Made by a program: the position numbers and the translations under genes | Source of the DNA: Pedococcus sp. 5OH_020 | GTDB taxonomy: Bacteria; Actinomycetota; Actinomycetes; Actinomycetales; Dermatophilaceae | Reading direction: 5' to 3' | Assembly: GCF_027812955.1 (NCBI RefSeq) | Contig: NZ_JAPYZV010000006.1 | Span: forward strand, 62,001 to 126,000 | Length of the DNA stretch: 64,000 nt | Notes under the pieces: generated by a model | What the model saw: only the letters and a program-made list of their open reading frames with translations | What the model was told of the DNA's origin: nothing | Database searches by the model: none | In this document: positions 43,132-46,939 of the stretch, piece after piece | How the letters are laid out: every line of letters begins with the position of its first letter | Position numbering within the stretch: the first letter of the stretch is position 1

Positions 43132-43412
43132 AGTGCGGACCTGACTCTGGCATGGACGAGGCGGCCGGCGCCGACTGCTCGGAGGTGCTGCACCGCGTCT
43201 ACGAGTACCTCGACGGTGAGATGACCAGGGACGACACGGTCAAGATCCAGCACCACCTCGACGCGTGCGCGCCCTGCCTTCAGCAGTACGACCTCGACCA
43301 GGCCCTCAAGGCCCTGGTGAAGCGGTCGTGCGCCTGCGAGGAGGCGCCGGTCGAGCTGCGTACGCAGATCATGGCCCGGATCACCACCATCCGGTTCGAG
43401 ATCGCGGAGTAG
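43128..43412 (+). CDS. rsrA: Zinc-containing anti-sigma factor RsrA
   Basis: This 94-residue ZAS-family anti-sigma binds SigR when reduced. The zinc motif H-x3-C-x2-C is HLDACAPC (His43, Cys47, Cys50), with Cys17 (DCSEVL) as the likely fourth ligand and redox partner; Cys3, Cys68 and Cys70 are additional. Disulfide formation expels zinc and frees SigR. The ATG overlaps the sigR TGA (ATGA), ensuring matched synthesis. A strong terminator follows at 43462. Confidence 0.95.
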
Positions 43413-43461
43413 CTCGCCCTCGCCGGGGAGCTCGGCCTTTCGGGCACCGCATCCCTCGTAG

Positions 43462-43513
43462 ACGACGAAGCGGGGCGGTCGGACCTGAGAGTCCGATCAC
43501 CCCGCCTCGTCGT
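43462..43513. terminator. Bidirectional terminator between rsrA and the bL37 gene
   Basis: ACGACGA...GCGGGG and GTCGGAC on the left pair with GTCCGA, CCCCGC and TCGTCGT on the right, interrupted by single mismatches, with a CTGAGA loop. It is placed to end rsrA transcription from the left and bL37 transcription from the right. Confidence 0.8.
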
Positions 43514-43535
43514 CTGCTGCGTCTGTGGCGCGGGC

Positions 43536-43610
43536 TCAGGCGTTGGGCTTGCGGCCGTGGTTGGCCGCGTTGCCCTTGCGCGAGCGGCGCTTGCGGGCGC
43601 GCTTGCTCAT
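43536..43610 (-). CDS. Ribosomal protein bL37 family (AURKAIP1/COX24-type), 24 residues
   Basis: This gene is too short for routine gene finders. The translation starts MSKRARKRRSRKGNAANHGR and ends KPNA, 24 residues, ten of them Arg or Lys. This matches the tiny basic protein of the AURKAIP1/COX24-like family, seen as an extra large-subunit protein (bL37) in mycobacterial ribosomes. It is encoded on the opposite strand downstream of rsrA, facing the shared terminator. The upstream side is the A/T-richer 43611-43917 region. The very regular RK pattern and the typical C-terminus NHGRKPNA make the call firm despite the length. Confidence 0.88.
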   Translation of the reverse strand: MSKRARKRRSRKGNAANHGRKPNA

Positions 43611-43917
43611 GGGGGTCACTCCGTCGGATTTCGGTCTGGCGCGGGGTGCGCCCGGTCTGGCGCGCTATTGTCTCACAGTTCCCGCGAATAAGCGCCTGCC
43701 ACCGGACAAGAGCGTCCGAATGTGTGCGTTTCCGGTGCAATCGGTGGATATGGATCTTCAAGACTTGGTCAAGAACAAGTCAGTAAACAATCAACACCGC
43801 AGGTTGGAGGGCATCATAGTCCTGCCAGCCAACCGCACCCCTGACGGTTCGCGGCATTGACCGCCCGATTGGTCCGAACGGACGATACAGGCATCGGGCA
43901 TAAGGAGACCATCAGCC
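43611..43917. other. 307-nt divergent regulatory region between bL37 and the TWSWGG peptide
   Basis: This stretch is clearly A/T-richer than its neighbours, especially 43660-43800. It must hold promoters in both directions. Rightward, TTGACC (43857-43862), 18 nt and GACGAT (43881-43886) form a promoter candidate, with an inverted repeat GTCCG-AA-CGGAC inside the spacer as a possible operator. Leftward boxes for bL37 are less clear. AAGGAGA at 43902-43908 is the ribosome site of the peptide gene. I see no further gene in it. Confidence 0.5.
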
Positions 43918-44046
43918 ATGAAGGCCATCACCACCATCTTCGAGTCCATCCTCCGCGACAACAAGGACCTGGTCTGGGCCCCCGAGGACTCTCGCGACGG
44001 TGCTGCGACCCAGTTCGCGTCCAACACCTGGAGCTGGGGCGGCTGA
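43918..44046 (+). CDS. 42-residue conserved-looking peptide ending TWSWGG
   Basis: The peptide starts MKAITTIFESILRDNKDLVW, continues with the acidic APEDSRDGAAT, and ends QFASNTWSWGG. It has a strong ribosome site (AAGGAGA, 9 nt before the ATG), its own promoter candidate and codon use like neighbouring genes, so it looks real. There is no signal peptide or membrane helix. The amphipathic N-terminal half and the aromatic, Gly-rich C-terminus resemble the leader/core layout of ribosomally made modified peptides. No modifying enzyme is adjacent, however. It precedes two membrane HD-domain proteins by 41 nt. Function unknown; a regulator or ligand of those proteins is a guess from position. Confidence 0.7.
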   Translation: MKAITTIFESILRDNKDLVWAPEDSRDGAATQFASNTWSWGG

Positions 44047-44087
44047 TTCACGGCTGCTGAACCTCACTGCCGGACTAGAGTGAGGTC

Positions 44088-45539
44088 GTGACGGCCGGGC
44101 GTACGAACGAGTCCGGGACCCACCGGAAGGCGCTGTGGACCAACCTCTTCGTGAGTGTGGTCGTGTGCGCGGCGGTGTGTCTGCTCTGGCTCGGGTACGT
44201 CGTAGCGGGAAGGCCGTACGCGACAGGCGCCCTTGGTGTGCTGGCAGTACTGGCCGTGACCGGCTGGGTGCTCCGTGAGGGCGACGTCGGTCACCGCGTG
44301 CAGTTCTCCTCCACGAGCATCGTCCTACTGGCCTCAGCCGTGATCATCGGCCCGGTCGGCTCCGGGCTCGTGGGACTGGTTTCCAACCTCACCGAGTGGC
44401 GACGGGGACGACCCGTCGTCTGCGCCTTCAACGCGGCGATGCACTCGGTCGTGGGAAGCGTCGGCGGGCTCGTGTTCTTCGCCCTGACCGGCCCCCACGC
44501 CATCGAACAGGTCCACGGGGCCCTCGACATCATCGGCCGGATCGGCGCACCACTGCTCGTCGCCGACATCGCGCAGTGCGGGACGAACGCCGTCCTCCTC
44601 GCAGGTGTCATGCGCGTCTCCGCCGGGGTCCCTGCGCGGACCCAGATCATCAAGCTTCTGAGCACCACGGGCGTCGCCTACGTCGGCTACGGCGTCATCG
44701 GCTTCCTCTTCGTCGTCCTCTGGGTCCCCGCCGAGGTCGGCTGGTTCAGCGCCGTGCTCGTGCTGGCCCCCCTCTTCGTGGCCCGCTGGGCCTTCGTGCA
44801 GTACGGCGACGAGCTGCGAGCCCAGGACCGCACGCTGCGAGCCCTCGTGACGGCTGGCGAGATCAAGGACCCCTCCAGCGCCGGCCACAGCGACCGCACC
44901 GCACAGCTCGCCGAATGGCTTGCCGAGACGCTCGGGCTGGGGCACAAGGAGATCCAGGAGGTCCGGACCGCCGCCATGCTGCACGACATCGGGAAGGTCT
45001 GCGTGCCGACGCGGCTCCTTCGCTCGCGGCAGGTGCTGTCCGACGACCAGCTCGTCGTCATGGCGGAGCACGCGCTCAGCGGGGTGGACCTCGTGCAGGG
45101 CATCGACTTCCTCTTCGGGTCCGTCCATGGCATCGCGCATCACCACGAGCGGTATGACGGCCGCGGCTATCCCGCGGGCCTGTCGGGCGACCGCATCCCC
45201 TTGGTCGCGCGGATCGTCGCGGTGGCTGACGCCTTCGACAGTCTGACGACCTCGCGGCCGTACCGGCGTGCCGCCACGGTGGAGGGGGCTCTGGCCGTGA
45301 TGGCCGCCCGTGCCGGCTCGCAGTTCGACCCGCAGATCGTCGAAGCGCTGCGGCGGGCTCTGGCGCGCCACGACTGGACGCCGACCGAGCGGACGCCGGA
45401 CCAGCTCGCCGCGGCCGGGGTAGCGCTGGACCACGACGAGCCGGAGATCTCGGACCTCTTCGCCACCCGGCGGGACCTGCGTGACCGGGTCCAGGGCGCG
45501 ACGACGTCCGTCGCCCTGCCCACGGGGAGCCATCGGTGA
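44088..45539 (+). CDS. Membrane HD-GYP-type phosphohydrolase
   Basis: This 483-residue protein has about seven membrane helices in residues ~15-240 (from LFVSVVVCAAVCLLWLGYVV), resembling the sensory part of other actinobacterial HD proteins. A C-terminal HD domain follows at residues ~255-450. The metal site is intact: TAAMLHDIGKV, MAEHALSG, IAHHHERYDGRGYPAGLSGD (the HD-GYP signature) and VADAFDSLTTSRPYR. HD-GYP enzymes usually hydrolyse cyclic dinucleotides such as c-di-GMP, but that substrate is not proven here. The start is GTG. The end overlaps the second HD gene (GTGA). Confidence 0.88.
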   Translation: MTAGRTNESGTHRKALWTNLFVSVVVCAAVCLLWLGYVVAGRPYATGALGVLAVLAVTGWVLREGDVGHRVQFSSTSIVLLASAVIIGPVGSGLVGLVSNLTEWRRGRPVVCAFNAAMHSVVGSVGGLVFFALTGPHAIEQVHGALDIIGRIGAPLLVADIAQCGTNAVLLAGVMRVSAGVPARTQIIKLLSTTGVAYVGYGVIGFLFVVLWVPAEVGWFSAVLVLAPLFVARWAFVQYGDELRAQDRTLRALVTAGEIKDPSSAGHSDRTAQLAEWLAETLGLGHKEIQEVRTAAMLHDIGKVCVPTRLLRSRQVLSDDQLVVMAEHALSGVDLVQGIDFLFGSVHGIAHHHERYDGRGYPAGLSGDRIPLVARIVAVADAFDSLTTSRPYRRAATVEGALAVMAARAGSQFDPQIVEALRRALARHDWTPTERTPDQLAAAGVALDHDEPEISDLFATRRDLRDRVQGATTSVALPTGSHR

Positions 45540-46843
45540 ACCGGCTGCGCCGCCTCACCGTCGATGCCAGGTGGCCTGTCGCGGTGGCCGCAGGCGCGAC
45601 CGTGGTGGTCTCGGGATGGGTGGGCCGGGCGGACCTTCGGGAGCTGCACGGCGGGCTTCTGCTCTCGGTCACTCTGTTCCTGCTGGCGATCGCCGTCGGG
45701 GAGACTGCCCGGCTCACGATCCTCACCGGACGCGAGACCTCGCCCATGTCGACGGCTGCCGCTCTGGGGCTCGCCTTGTCGCTGCTGAAGTTCCAGGGGT
45801 CCGCTGGCCACGTCGGCGCGGCCCTGGTCACGGCTGTCGTGGCCTGTGGCATCATCGTCGGCTCCCTGCTGCTGAGGGCCACCGGCGCCCGTGTCTCCTG
45901 GGTGGACATGTCCGCCCGGGTCGCCGGCGCCTGGGTGGCCCCCGTGCTCTACCGGTACGTCCGCTTCGACGGCCAGACCCTGGTGCAGTGGCAGGAGGCG
46001 TGGGCGCACCACCGTTGGCTGGTCGGGCTCGTCATGCTGCTCGTCGGTGGGGTGGCGATGCTGGTCGACCTCGTCCTGGAGGCAGCGGTCCGCGCCGGAC
46101 GCGACCAGGCTCCGCTCCTACCGGCCGTCATCGACGAGGTCCGCTCCACGGTCGCCCTCGCCACCGCCCTGGTGACCTCCGGCGCCCTCATCGCGCTCGC
46201 GGCACACGCGATCGGCATCGCGGCCCTCCCGCTGTTCCTCTTCCCGCTGGTCCTGACGTCGTTCGCCGTCCAGCGCTATGCCAGCATCCGGCTCACCTAC
46301 CGCCAGACCATCGGCGCCCTGTCCGGTCTCACGGAGCGCGCGGGGTACACGGTCACCGACCACGGCCAGCGGGTGGCGCAGCTGTCGCTGGCGGTGGGGC
46401 GTGACCTCGGTATGGGGCAGCGGGAACTGACGGACCTGGAGTATGCCGCGTTGCTGCACGACCTGGGGCAGGTGGCGTTGCGGGAGCCGATCCCCATGGG
46501 TGCCACGGTGCTCGTGGCGCCCGCGGACCAGCAGCGGATCGCCCACGACGGCGCGGAGATCGTGCGCACCACCGGCGTACTCGACAACGTCGCGGCCATC
46601 CTGGAGGCGCAGACGACGCCGTACCGACAGGTGCGGGAGTTCGGCCAGGACCTGCCTCTCGCCAGCAGGATCATCAAGGTCGCCAACGCCTACGACGACC
46701 TCAGCGCTCCCGGCGGCGAGAACGACGAGCGCGCCATCGAGCGCATCCACCTCGGCCTCGGCTACGAGTACGACCCGCGCGTCGTGGACTCGCTGACCCG
46801 CGTCCTGGACCGCCGCCGCCGGCTGACCACCGCGCACGGGTGA
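45536..46843 (+). CDS. Membrane HD-domain protein with degenerate GYP region
   Basis: This 435-residue paralog of the preceding protein has about seven helices (residues ~15-245), then an HD domain. LEYAALLHDLGQVAL keeps His-Asp and HDGAEIV keeps the next His. The expected HHERxDGxGYP segment is replaced by AILEAQTTPYRQV, so two metal ligands and the GYP motif are missing. VANAYDDLSAP retains the last Asp region. It is probably catalytically weak or inactive and may pair with the preceding enzyme. The GTG overlaps the previous stop. A strong terminator follows. Confidence 0.85.
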   Translation: MNRLRRLTVDARWPVAVAAGATVVVSGWVGRADLRELHGGLLLSVTLFLLAIAVGETARLTILTGRETSPMSTAAALGLALSLLKFQGSAGHVGAALVTAVVACGIIVGSLLLRATGARVSWVDMSARVAGAWVAPVLYRYVRFDGQTLVQWQEAWAHHRWLVGLVMLLVGGVAMLVDLVLEAAVRAGRDQAPLLPAVIDEVRSTVALATALVTSGALIALAAHAIGIAALPLFLFPLVLTSFAVQRYASIRLTYRQTIGALSGLTERAGYTVTDHGQRVAQLSLAVGRDLGMGQRELTDLEYAALLHDLGQVALREPIPMGATVLVAPADQQRIAHDGAEIVRTTGVLDNVAAILEAQTTPYRQVREFGQDLPLASRIIKVANAYDDLSAPGGENDERAIERIHLGLGYEYDPRVVDSLTRVLDRRRRLTTAHG

Positions 46844-46899: not shown

Positions 46900-46939
46900 G
46901 AGAAGCGGTGCCGGGACCGAGGCCCCGACACCGCTTCTC
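46900..46939. terminator. Bidirectional terminator after the HD genes
   Basis: GAGAAGCGGTG (46900-46910) pairs with CACCGCTTCTC (46929-46939), with CGGG/CCCG inside. It lies between the convergent HD gene and the symporter gene. Confidence 0.8.

Follow-up and report, generated by a model that had tools for sequence, protein, structure and literature searches.

The window analyzed here, a 64,000-nucleotide (nt) stretch of Pedococcus sp. 5OH_020 (contig NZ_JAPYZV010000006.1, positions 62,001 to 126,000), contains a 42-codon peptide gene just ahead of two genes for membrane proteins with HD domains, here HD1 and HD2. From sequence comparison, it seems to us fairly likely that this peptide belongs to a family found across the phylum, whose members serve the neighboring HdgA-type receptor (here HD1) as dedicated ligands or regulators. 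As such, it is probably a missing signal or partner of the HdgA-type enzyme. We observed the gene, its conservation, the order of the genes, the predicted fold of the HD1 membrane domain, and a peptide tail that varies jointly with HD1 residues. The features involved are listed here.

43902 to 43907, plus strand: Shine-Dalgarno (SD) sequence AAGGAG of the peptide gene, ending 10 nt before the ATG
43918 to 44046, plus strand: peptide gene, 42 residues plus TGA, MKAITTIFESILRDNKDLVWAPEDSRDGAATQFASNTWSWGG, ending NTWSWGG
44026 to 44043, plus strand: C-terminal tail TWSWGG, the proposed active part; position kept, residues species-variable
44088 to 45539, plus strand: HD1, HdgA-type membrane protein with intact HD-GYP domain (AlphaFold2 model, mean predicted local distance difference test, pLDDT, 84.6)
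44088 to 44822, plus strand: HD1 membrane domain, predicted S-component fold (Foldseek; VIA matches over residues ~41 to 220)
44427 to 44432, plus strand: F114-N115 codons of HD1, varying jointly with the peptide tail
44586 to 44588, plus strand: N167 codon of HD1, invariant in class-level rows with a peptide
45536 to 46843, plus strand: HD2, HdgB-type membrane protein, QTTPYRQ in place of the GYP motif (model pLDDT 90.3)

The peptide gene and the two HD genes

The 42-codon peptide gene is real. The original prediction of a short gene with a ribosome site, an NTWSWGG end, and a 41-nt gap is borne out by the coordinates, with 41 nt between the stop codon and the HD1 start, a GTG at 44088. The gene is present in all 11 genomes of the window genus (g1); 10 homologs were found by sequence, and the eleventh genome (G105, locus L264) has one too. 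Pedococcus itself is classed in Intrasporangiaceae. In the 10 found by sequence, MKAITTIFESIL is almost invariant and the tail is species-specific. Some species have single tails (TWSWGG, VWGWGG, NWQWGG, and AWGWTS) and others two-copy tails (e.g., RGWGWGG, RGWTWTG, GWEWR, GWDWKG, and GWKWDP). Library scans placed the window peptide in no Pfam or NCBIfam family. When it was the only query (P0001), matches outside the genus fell nearly all within open reading frames (ORFs) of about 1100 to 1265 residues, which were treated as chance; one lay in a 90-residue frame (G057).

The two downstream genes overlap by 4 nt, as had been described. HD1 matches PF13487 (E 2.4e-40) and keeps LHDIGK and HHERYDGRGYP, the residues of an HD-GYP phosphodiesterase. 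HD2 has a degenerate HD-GYP domain (E 2.4e-10) in which HDLGQ is kept and QTTPYRQ stands where the GYP motif would be, and it lacks that residue set. A membrane HD-GYP protein in tandem with a degenerate one is what defines an HdgA/HdgB pair in the part of PMC6205966 available, and HD1 and HD2 appear to be orthologs of Streptomyces venezuelae HdgA and HdgB. The order sigR-rsrA-HD1-HD2 was found at 29 of 30 loci checked, the remaining contig beginning beside HD1; at L183, rsrA is 5.3 kb from HD1.

Predicted fold and conservation of the membrane domains

Ahead of the HD domain, the HD1 model shows seven long stretches of helix if residues 76 to 104 are taken as one, in agreement with the seven helices originally predicted. 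Its C-terminal half matches HD-GYP structures, and its membrane half matches S-components of energy-coupling factor (ECF) transporters. Foldseek matched the membrane half to RibU (E 0.021, probability 1.00). Over residues ~41 to 220, VIA gave Z scores of 13.6 for 4m5b (a transition-metal transporter), 12.6 for FolT, 12.1 for BioY, 11.8 for ThiT, and 11.3 for RibU, although values near 13 can be common among helical bundles without kinship. S-components make up 21 of the 50 VIA matches listed for the HD1 model, and there is none among the 50 listed for HD2. The HD1 membrane domain is predicted to have the ligand-binding ECF S-component fold.

Across ten genomes of the genus, this domain is the least conserved part compared, with a mean identity of 56%. 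The HD1 HD domain reaches 65%, the HD2 membrane and HD domains 60% and 85%, rsrA 83%, and the symporter 89%. The QTTPYRQ replacement in HD2 is itself conserved, and since the HD domain of HD2 is more conserved than its membrane domain, selection appears to act there on something besides standard HD-GYP catalysis.

A widespread family of Trp-tailed peptides

To define the family, we scanned the DNA near HD1 starts for SD-preceded ORFs of 12 to 75 residues with tryptophan (Trp) within the last nine. Of 172 distinct HD1 loci, 168 were usable; many are close relatives, including dozens from Nonomuraea. Such an ORF was present at 149 of the 168 loci; the same intervals contained one in 28 cases when read on the opposite strand and in 35 when shuffled by a first-order Markov model. 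The conservation of a peptide upstream of HD homologs, which the original prediction had named as its own check, was thus found. The literal TWSWGG end expected there is not conserved in the family; a C-terminal Trp is the constant.

Seven of the 149 calls were dropped before counting (L221, L222, L224, L228, L239, L242, and L245), of which L245 is a genuine ORF with a late start, and L228 and L239 have an alternative candidate. Another five peptides (L176, L188, L099, L103, and L196) were entered by hand, and ten more came from a relaxed look. L215 had no upstream DNA, and L219 and L226 no well-aligned membrane part. After the seven removals and five hand additions, the family comprises 147 entries, or 141 distinct peptides. 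The last Trp lies 0 to 6 residues from the C terminus in 138 curated peptides, W-x-W occurs in 74, and in 120 of the 141 distinct peptides the last Trp has W, F, Y, I, V, L, or M two positions ahead of it. N termini are unrelated between genera, and the C-terminal Trp core (W-x-W or hydrophobic-x-W) recurs. SD matches of 4 to 7 bases precede 142 family peptides, 4 being the scan cutoff. Streptosporangiaceae were at one point taken to have no peptide, a view we rejected: a search limited to W-x-W had missed theirs, and broader searches found them.

None of 23 members scanned fell in an NCBIfam or Pfam family; there were four single weak matches, the best with an E value of 0.0089. These short ORFs form a large, unrecorded family, widespread in Actinomycetota and absent from NCBIfam and Pfam.

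Joint variation of the peptide tail and HD1 membrane residues

Every class-level row with a peptide (148 of 148) has both N115 and N167 of HD1; in this set, the window locus stands twice (win and L022) and five of the peptides are hand additions. Another twelve HD1 rows had both Asn residues and no called peptide, and a relaxed look by eye, made with no control, showed a peptide in 10 of the 11 with upstream DNA and an ambiguous picture in the eleventh (L242). In family f37 (inferred to be Streptomyces), both residues are absent from all 10 rows covering them, and a peptide was found in the rsrA-hdgA gap at none of the 12 loci, L219 and L226 among them being poorly aligned. Trp-ending ORFs inside rsrA at f37 loci were discounted as chance. 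The f37 HD1 proteins retain their catalytic residues (11 of 11), with HD2 beside HD1 at 10 of 10 loci checked and rsrA at 9 of 10. The clade around L031 to L039 shows the reverse condition: the HD-GYP motifs are lost, and the peptide and both Asn residues are retained.

Beyond the class, 22 loci were compared. The scan found a Trp peptide at 13 of 15 loci with N115 versus 0 of 7 with S115, a 9-residue ORF 261 nt away in L293 having been discounted as chance. The S115 loci have instead an ORF with the same hydrophobic leader and the tail GGRLG or GSRMG (7 of 7, by eye and then by machine; the L298 frame is open further upstream). Of the two N115 loci without a scan peptide, L295 has the tail NSRYP by eye, and in L291 no peptide was found.

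The simple rule that N115 means Trp had to be rejected at 17 further loci, where only 8 of 14 N115 loci have it, and it was replaced afterwards by a rule on positions 114 and 115. Of ten loci with F or Y at 114 and N115, eight have a Trp tail and two a Tyr tail; none of six with S115, or with position 114 occupied by A, I, or R, has Trp. The tails of those six are FRI (two), FRF, LKIPTQ, and GSRMG, no peptide being found in L309, and F114A or F114I accompanies ARFRI or ARFRF tails. At these 17 loci, the choice of peptide among several ORFs was made by eye; the DNA at L314 was too short, and L316 and L317 have no detectable SD sequence. Over all 206 rows, 179 have both a tail Trp and F114-N115, 23 have neither, 4 have F114-N115 and no Trp, and none has the reverse.

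Peptide forms, repeats, and selection

The N-terminal leaders are of several types: amphipathic (M[KS]KIxxxVExfL, MFAALLSALAS), hydrophobic (..PPGVSWT, ..TGWSWW), and Sec-like with an AxA site. Near-leaderless forms also occur, one of 16 residues (MLKETVGPVHPGISWT) and one of 10 (MQINSNWKWA). By crude rules, 12 of the 141 distinct peptides fit a Sec signal (SignalP was not the rule used) and 44 are hydrophobic. Some peptides have tandem tails of two to six copies, among them L103, with a YHNWEPKAG-type unit five times, and L090, with NIDWA six times behind a hydrophobic start. More than one WxWxx occurs in nine peptides; the WxW cores are identical within each (9 of 9), and the fifth residue differs in one. 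At L183 and L029 (G025), three tandem peptide genes with repeated WSWGPQSAWSW cores lie ahead of HD1, and upstream of HD1 at L191 (family f31) a possible second peptide of 9 residues, MREENWKWG, stands beside MGKLRSVLEQFLSAGSTAKWE.

These layouts bear on two alternatives. A leader followed by a core, at times by several identical cores, is what one would expect of a precursor of a ribosomally synthesized and posttranslationally modified peptide (RiPP) or of a bacteriocin with Trp cross-links, with HD1 and HD2 serving in immunity or regulation. The versions of only 10 to 16 residues and the genes around the window locus lead us to regard this as very improbable. None of the eight neighbors between 40.6 and 50 kb is a RiPP or other peptide-modifying enzyme, distant enzymes not having been searched for. 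The 23 scanned members matched no RiPP family, apart from a single weak match to lactococcin 972 (E 0.026). The original suggestion of a precursor peptide with a distant modifying enzyme likewise found no support, in a comparison confined to those eight neighbors and the short versions.

Alternatively, the peptide could be a small, nondiffusing subunit that joins HdgA in the membrane of the cell that makes it and serves folding or activity, not signaling. The forms with a single hydrophobic helix, the 44 hydrophobic peptides, and the close gene layout would suit such a part. Sec-type forms with AxA sites, repeated tails, hydrophilic leaders in the window genus, and tails that differ inside one genus would not, and we see a subunit as a possibility, though doubtful.

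Purifying selection on the protein is clear in some peptide parts and absent in others. For the GVSWT group, the ratio of nonsynonymous to synonymous change (pN/pS) is 0.19 over the final eight codons; the 16-residue group gives 0.43. In the window genus it is 0.35 for codons 2 to 12 and 1.15 for codons 13 to 26, and the leaders of the MFAALL, KKI, and GVSWT groups give 0.49, 0.58, and 1.08. Synonymous change is low in the genus leader (pS 0.125), so constraint at the DNA level is possible there.

The start of HD1 and a possible leader peptide role

HD1 in the window has a promoter-like element of its own.

44076 to 44081, plus strand: -10 box TAGAGT of HD1 at leaderless-transcript spacing (TANNNT 12 to 13 nt before the HD1 start)

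This box is found at 11 of 11 loci (the window, nine other g1 loci, and Pedococcus cremeus [G042], assigned to a genus code neighboring g1), of which 1 of 11 has an SD sequence. HD1 therefore need not be read from the peptide transcript in the window genus. This matters for a third alternative, in which the ORF is a cis-acting leader peptide whose Trp codons or ribosome-arresting tail control HD1 by attenuation or coupling, the peptide itself being inert. The rarity of the leaderless-type box in other groups (4/43, 1/16, 0/21, and 0/50, for one start choice) speaks for such a leader, but in the MFAALL group the box appears at 8 of 16 loci if any in-frame start is allowed, against 0 of 16 in a control made with a 37-nt shift only. 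The close gene spacing also agrees with a leader, above all in Nonomuraea, where the peptide stop is close to or within the approximate HD1 start and the genes about touch. Trp codons lie near the stop, with WWW forms in L041 and L047, and strong hairpins lie near the HD1 start at some loci; yet in family f75 and others the ORF persists with no Trp codons in its tail, although a regulatory role for those codons would have retained them. In the window, the fold of the gap is unremarkable (z -0.43), and a hairpin over the HD1 start that we had considered as an attenuator was dropped on that value. No Rfam attenuator was found at 43400 to 44200; the two matches there are microRNA families far below thresholds. 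The 12 Sec-type forms, the tandem repeats, and a tail that tracks membrane residues of the HD1 protein product also speak against an inert leader. Because of the promoter-like box in the window genus, the Trp-less ORF lineages, and the Sec-type and repeated forms, we disfavor a leader and consider it quite unlikely.

The peptides of L041/L181 and L047/L182 (RRTWWW[AT]PVA[SR]) resemble Trp attenuator leaders, with a strong hairpin following near the HD1 start. Judging from these sequences, attenuator-like regulation by Trp could have been added in that branch.

A model for the peptide and HD1

Our favored reading is that the peptide is a ligand or regulator of HD1. The N terminus would take the peptide to or through the membrane as a Sec-type signal, a single hydrophobic helix, or an amphipathic helix, depending on the lineage. 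The aromatic C-terminal tail (W-x-W or hydrophobic-x-W) would then dock on the HD1 membrane domain with its S-component-like fold, either at helix residues F114-N115 or at a site coupled to them. Docking would switch the HD-GYP domain in the cytoplasm to another state and, together with HD2, alter the local level of cyclic di-GMP (c-di-GMP). We infer the physical contact from the comparisons, and with the same reserve we speak of the location of the peptide, the direction of regulation, the role of HD2, and action between cells as opposed to within the producing cell only. A tail that acts on the HD1 membrane domain would explain why the tail and residues 114/115 change jointly, why the peptide is lost along with those residues while catalysis stays, and why it is kept where catalysis is lost. 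The original suggestion that the peptide signals to the HD proteins or binds them is supported by the phylum-wide adjacency to HD1, the Sec-type and tandem forms, and the joint variation.

Several points weigh against this reading. A Trp near the C terminus was itself a criterion of the main scan. HdgA and HdgB persist in f37 without a peptide, and four F114-N115 rows have no Trp, three with Tyr tails and one in which no peptide was found. In a 104-row tree built without the 114/115 columns, the residue pair changes 5 times and the tail 6 times. Supported branches yield 4 independent pairs, of which 2 agree and 0 oppose (p 0.5); with so few independent changes (about five), the joint variation is not significant on the tree. 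The table of 206 rows is not a blind test either, because the 114/115 rule was refined afterwards and the peptides from other classes were selected by eye with the residues in view. F114 and N115 lie near one end of helix 109-134 in the HD1 model and may not line a pocket. Most peptides, that of the window included, have no recognizable export signal, given that 12 of 141 fit the crude Sec rule. Finally, no purifying signal is seen in the tails of two groups, MFAALL (pN/pS 1.16) and KKI (1.01).

Flanking sequences and neighboring genes

Two further features flank the genes in the window.

43757 to 43774, plus strand: conserved upstream block TTCAAGACTTGGTCAAGA, a possible operator, at this locus in 11 of 11 genus genomes with 0 to 1 mismatch
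46900 to 46939, no strand assigned: 18-pair hairpin between convergent genes, T-run on the minus strand only

No sigma-70 consensus promoter was found upstream of the window peptide gene, where a promoter candidate had been proposed, but genus-conserved DNA blocks are there. One of these, TTCAAGNNTTGGNNAAGA (43757 to 43774), recurs with one mismatch ahead of another gene in five genus genomes (L270, L271, L272, L276, and L279). That gene encodes a protein of about 126 to 135 residues (..NSLGVFVQDQMNLLGWNRAVLAERT..), helix-turn-helix (HTH)-like by eye and without a Pfam family. This HTH-like protein is a possible regulator of the peptide gene.

The strong terminator predicted behind HD2 is a real hairpin; its T-run, however, is on the minus strand, and it therefore fits the convergent symporter gene. 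A strong inverted repeat at 43460 to 43515 lies between rsrA and a small basic gene on the opposite strand (MSKRARKRRSRKGNAANHGRKPNA) and is perhaps a bidirectional terminator.

The eight neighbors encode an SRAP protein, an alpha/beta hydrolase, SigR, RsrA (an anti-sigma zinc finger protein), a symporter, a DUF3311 protein, a Ni superoxide dismutase, and a signal-peptidase-like protein. The alpha/beta hydrolase also recurs near other loci. In most f37 genomes, a conserved element around GTGCTAATCC replaces the peptide in the rsrA-hdgA gap (L216 to L225 and L255).

Comparison with known systems

The ComX-ComP and AgrD-AgrC pheromone pairs resemble the window locus in that a short, variable peptide is encoded beside its membrane receptor. 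They differ in receptor fold and output, and the window gene shows no neighboring modifying or exporting enzyme. MgrB-PhoQ offers another parallel, MgrB being a tiny membrane-directed protein that acts on a sensor. The window family differs from it in its tandem tails and in joint variation with one sensor site, a distinction drawn by description only.

HD1 and HD2 are like HdgA and HdgB of S. venezuelae (vnz24090/vnz24095) in that a membrane HD-GYP protein is adjacent to a degenerate one (PMC6205966). In the available part of that paper, the two are membrane bound, their deletion has no developmental phenotype, 13 of 93 strains have neither, and in the authors' suggestion the activating signals were lacking; unlike at the window locus, no peptide is mentioned there. 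Poor expression of hdgA and hdgB and self-interaction of HdgB are given in the available part of PMC13232838. The f37 HD1 proteins also differ from the window HD1 in having neither F114-N115 nor N167. A neighboring peptide whose tail covaries with the sensor domain is a concrete candidate ligand for HdgA.

In the open-access literature, among the matches listed, there was no report of this peptide; subscription papers and preprints were outside the search. A paper on Micrococcus competence (PMC8467076) is, from the part available, unrelated. The available text of a review of c-di-GMP sensing (PMC8846402) contains "autoinducing peptide" 0 times and "peptide" once.

HD1 also has a likeness in architecture to receptors such as the pyruvate sensor BtsS of the 5TMR sensor kinases, in which a membrane sensor of S-component fold also precedes a cytoplasmic output, though BtsS-type receptors differ from HD1 in their kinase output and small-molecule ligand (PMC11109136, available part). 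The same source gives the fold as known in transporters, sensor kinases, and MreD, and its main text, as far as available, contains no "HD domain," "phosphodiesterase," or "diguanylate." If the peptide binds HD1, the S-component fold would be extended to peptide recognition. More tentatively, the family may amount to a phylum-wide peptide language, one that we rate as possible rather than likely: exported Trp-tailed peptides, often from multicopy precursors with species-specific tails, would be read by S-component-fold receptors that set c-di-GMP via HdgA-HdgB. If true, this would be a class of bacterial peptide signaling unlike the AgrD, ComX, or Rgg systems.

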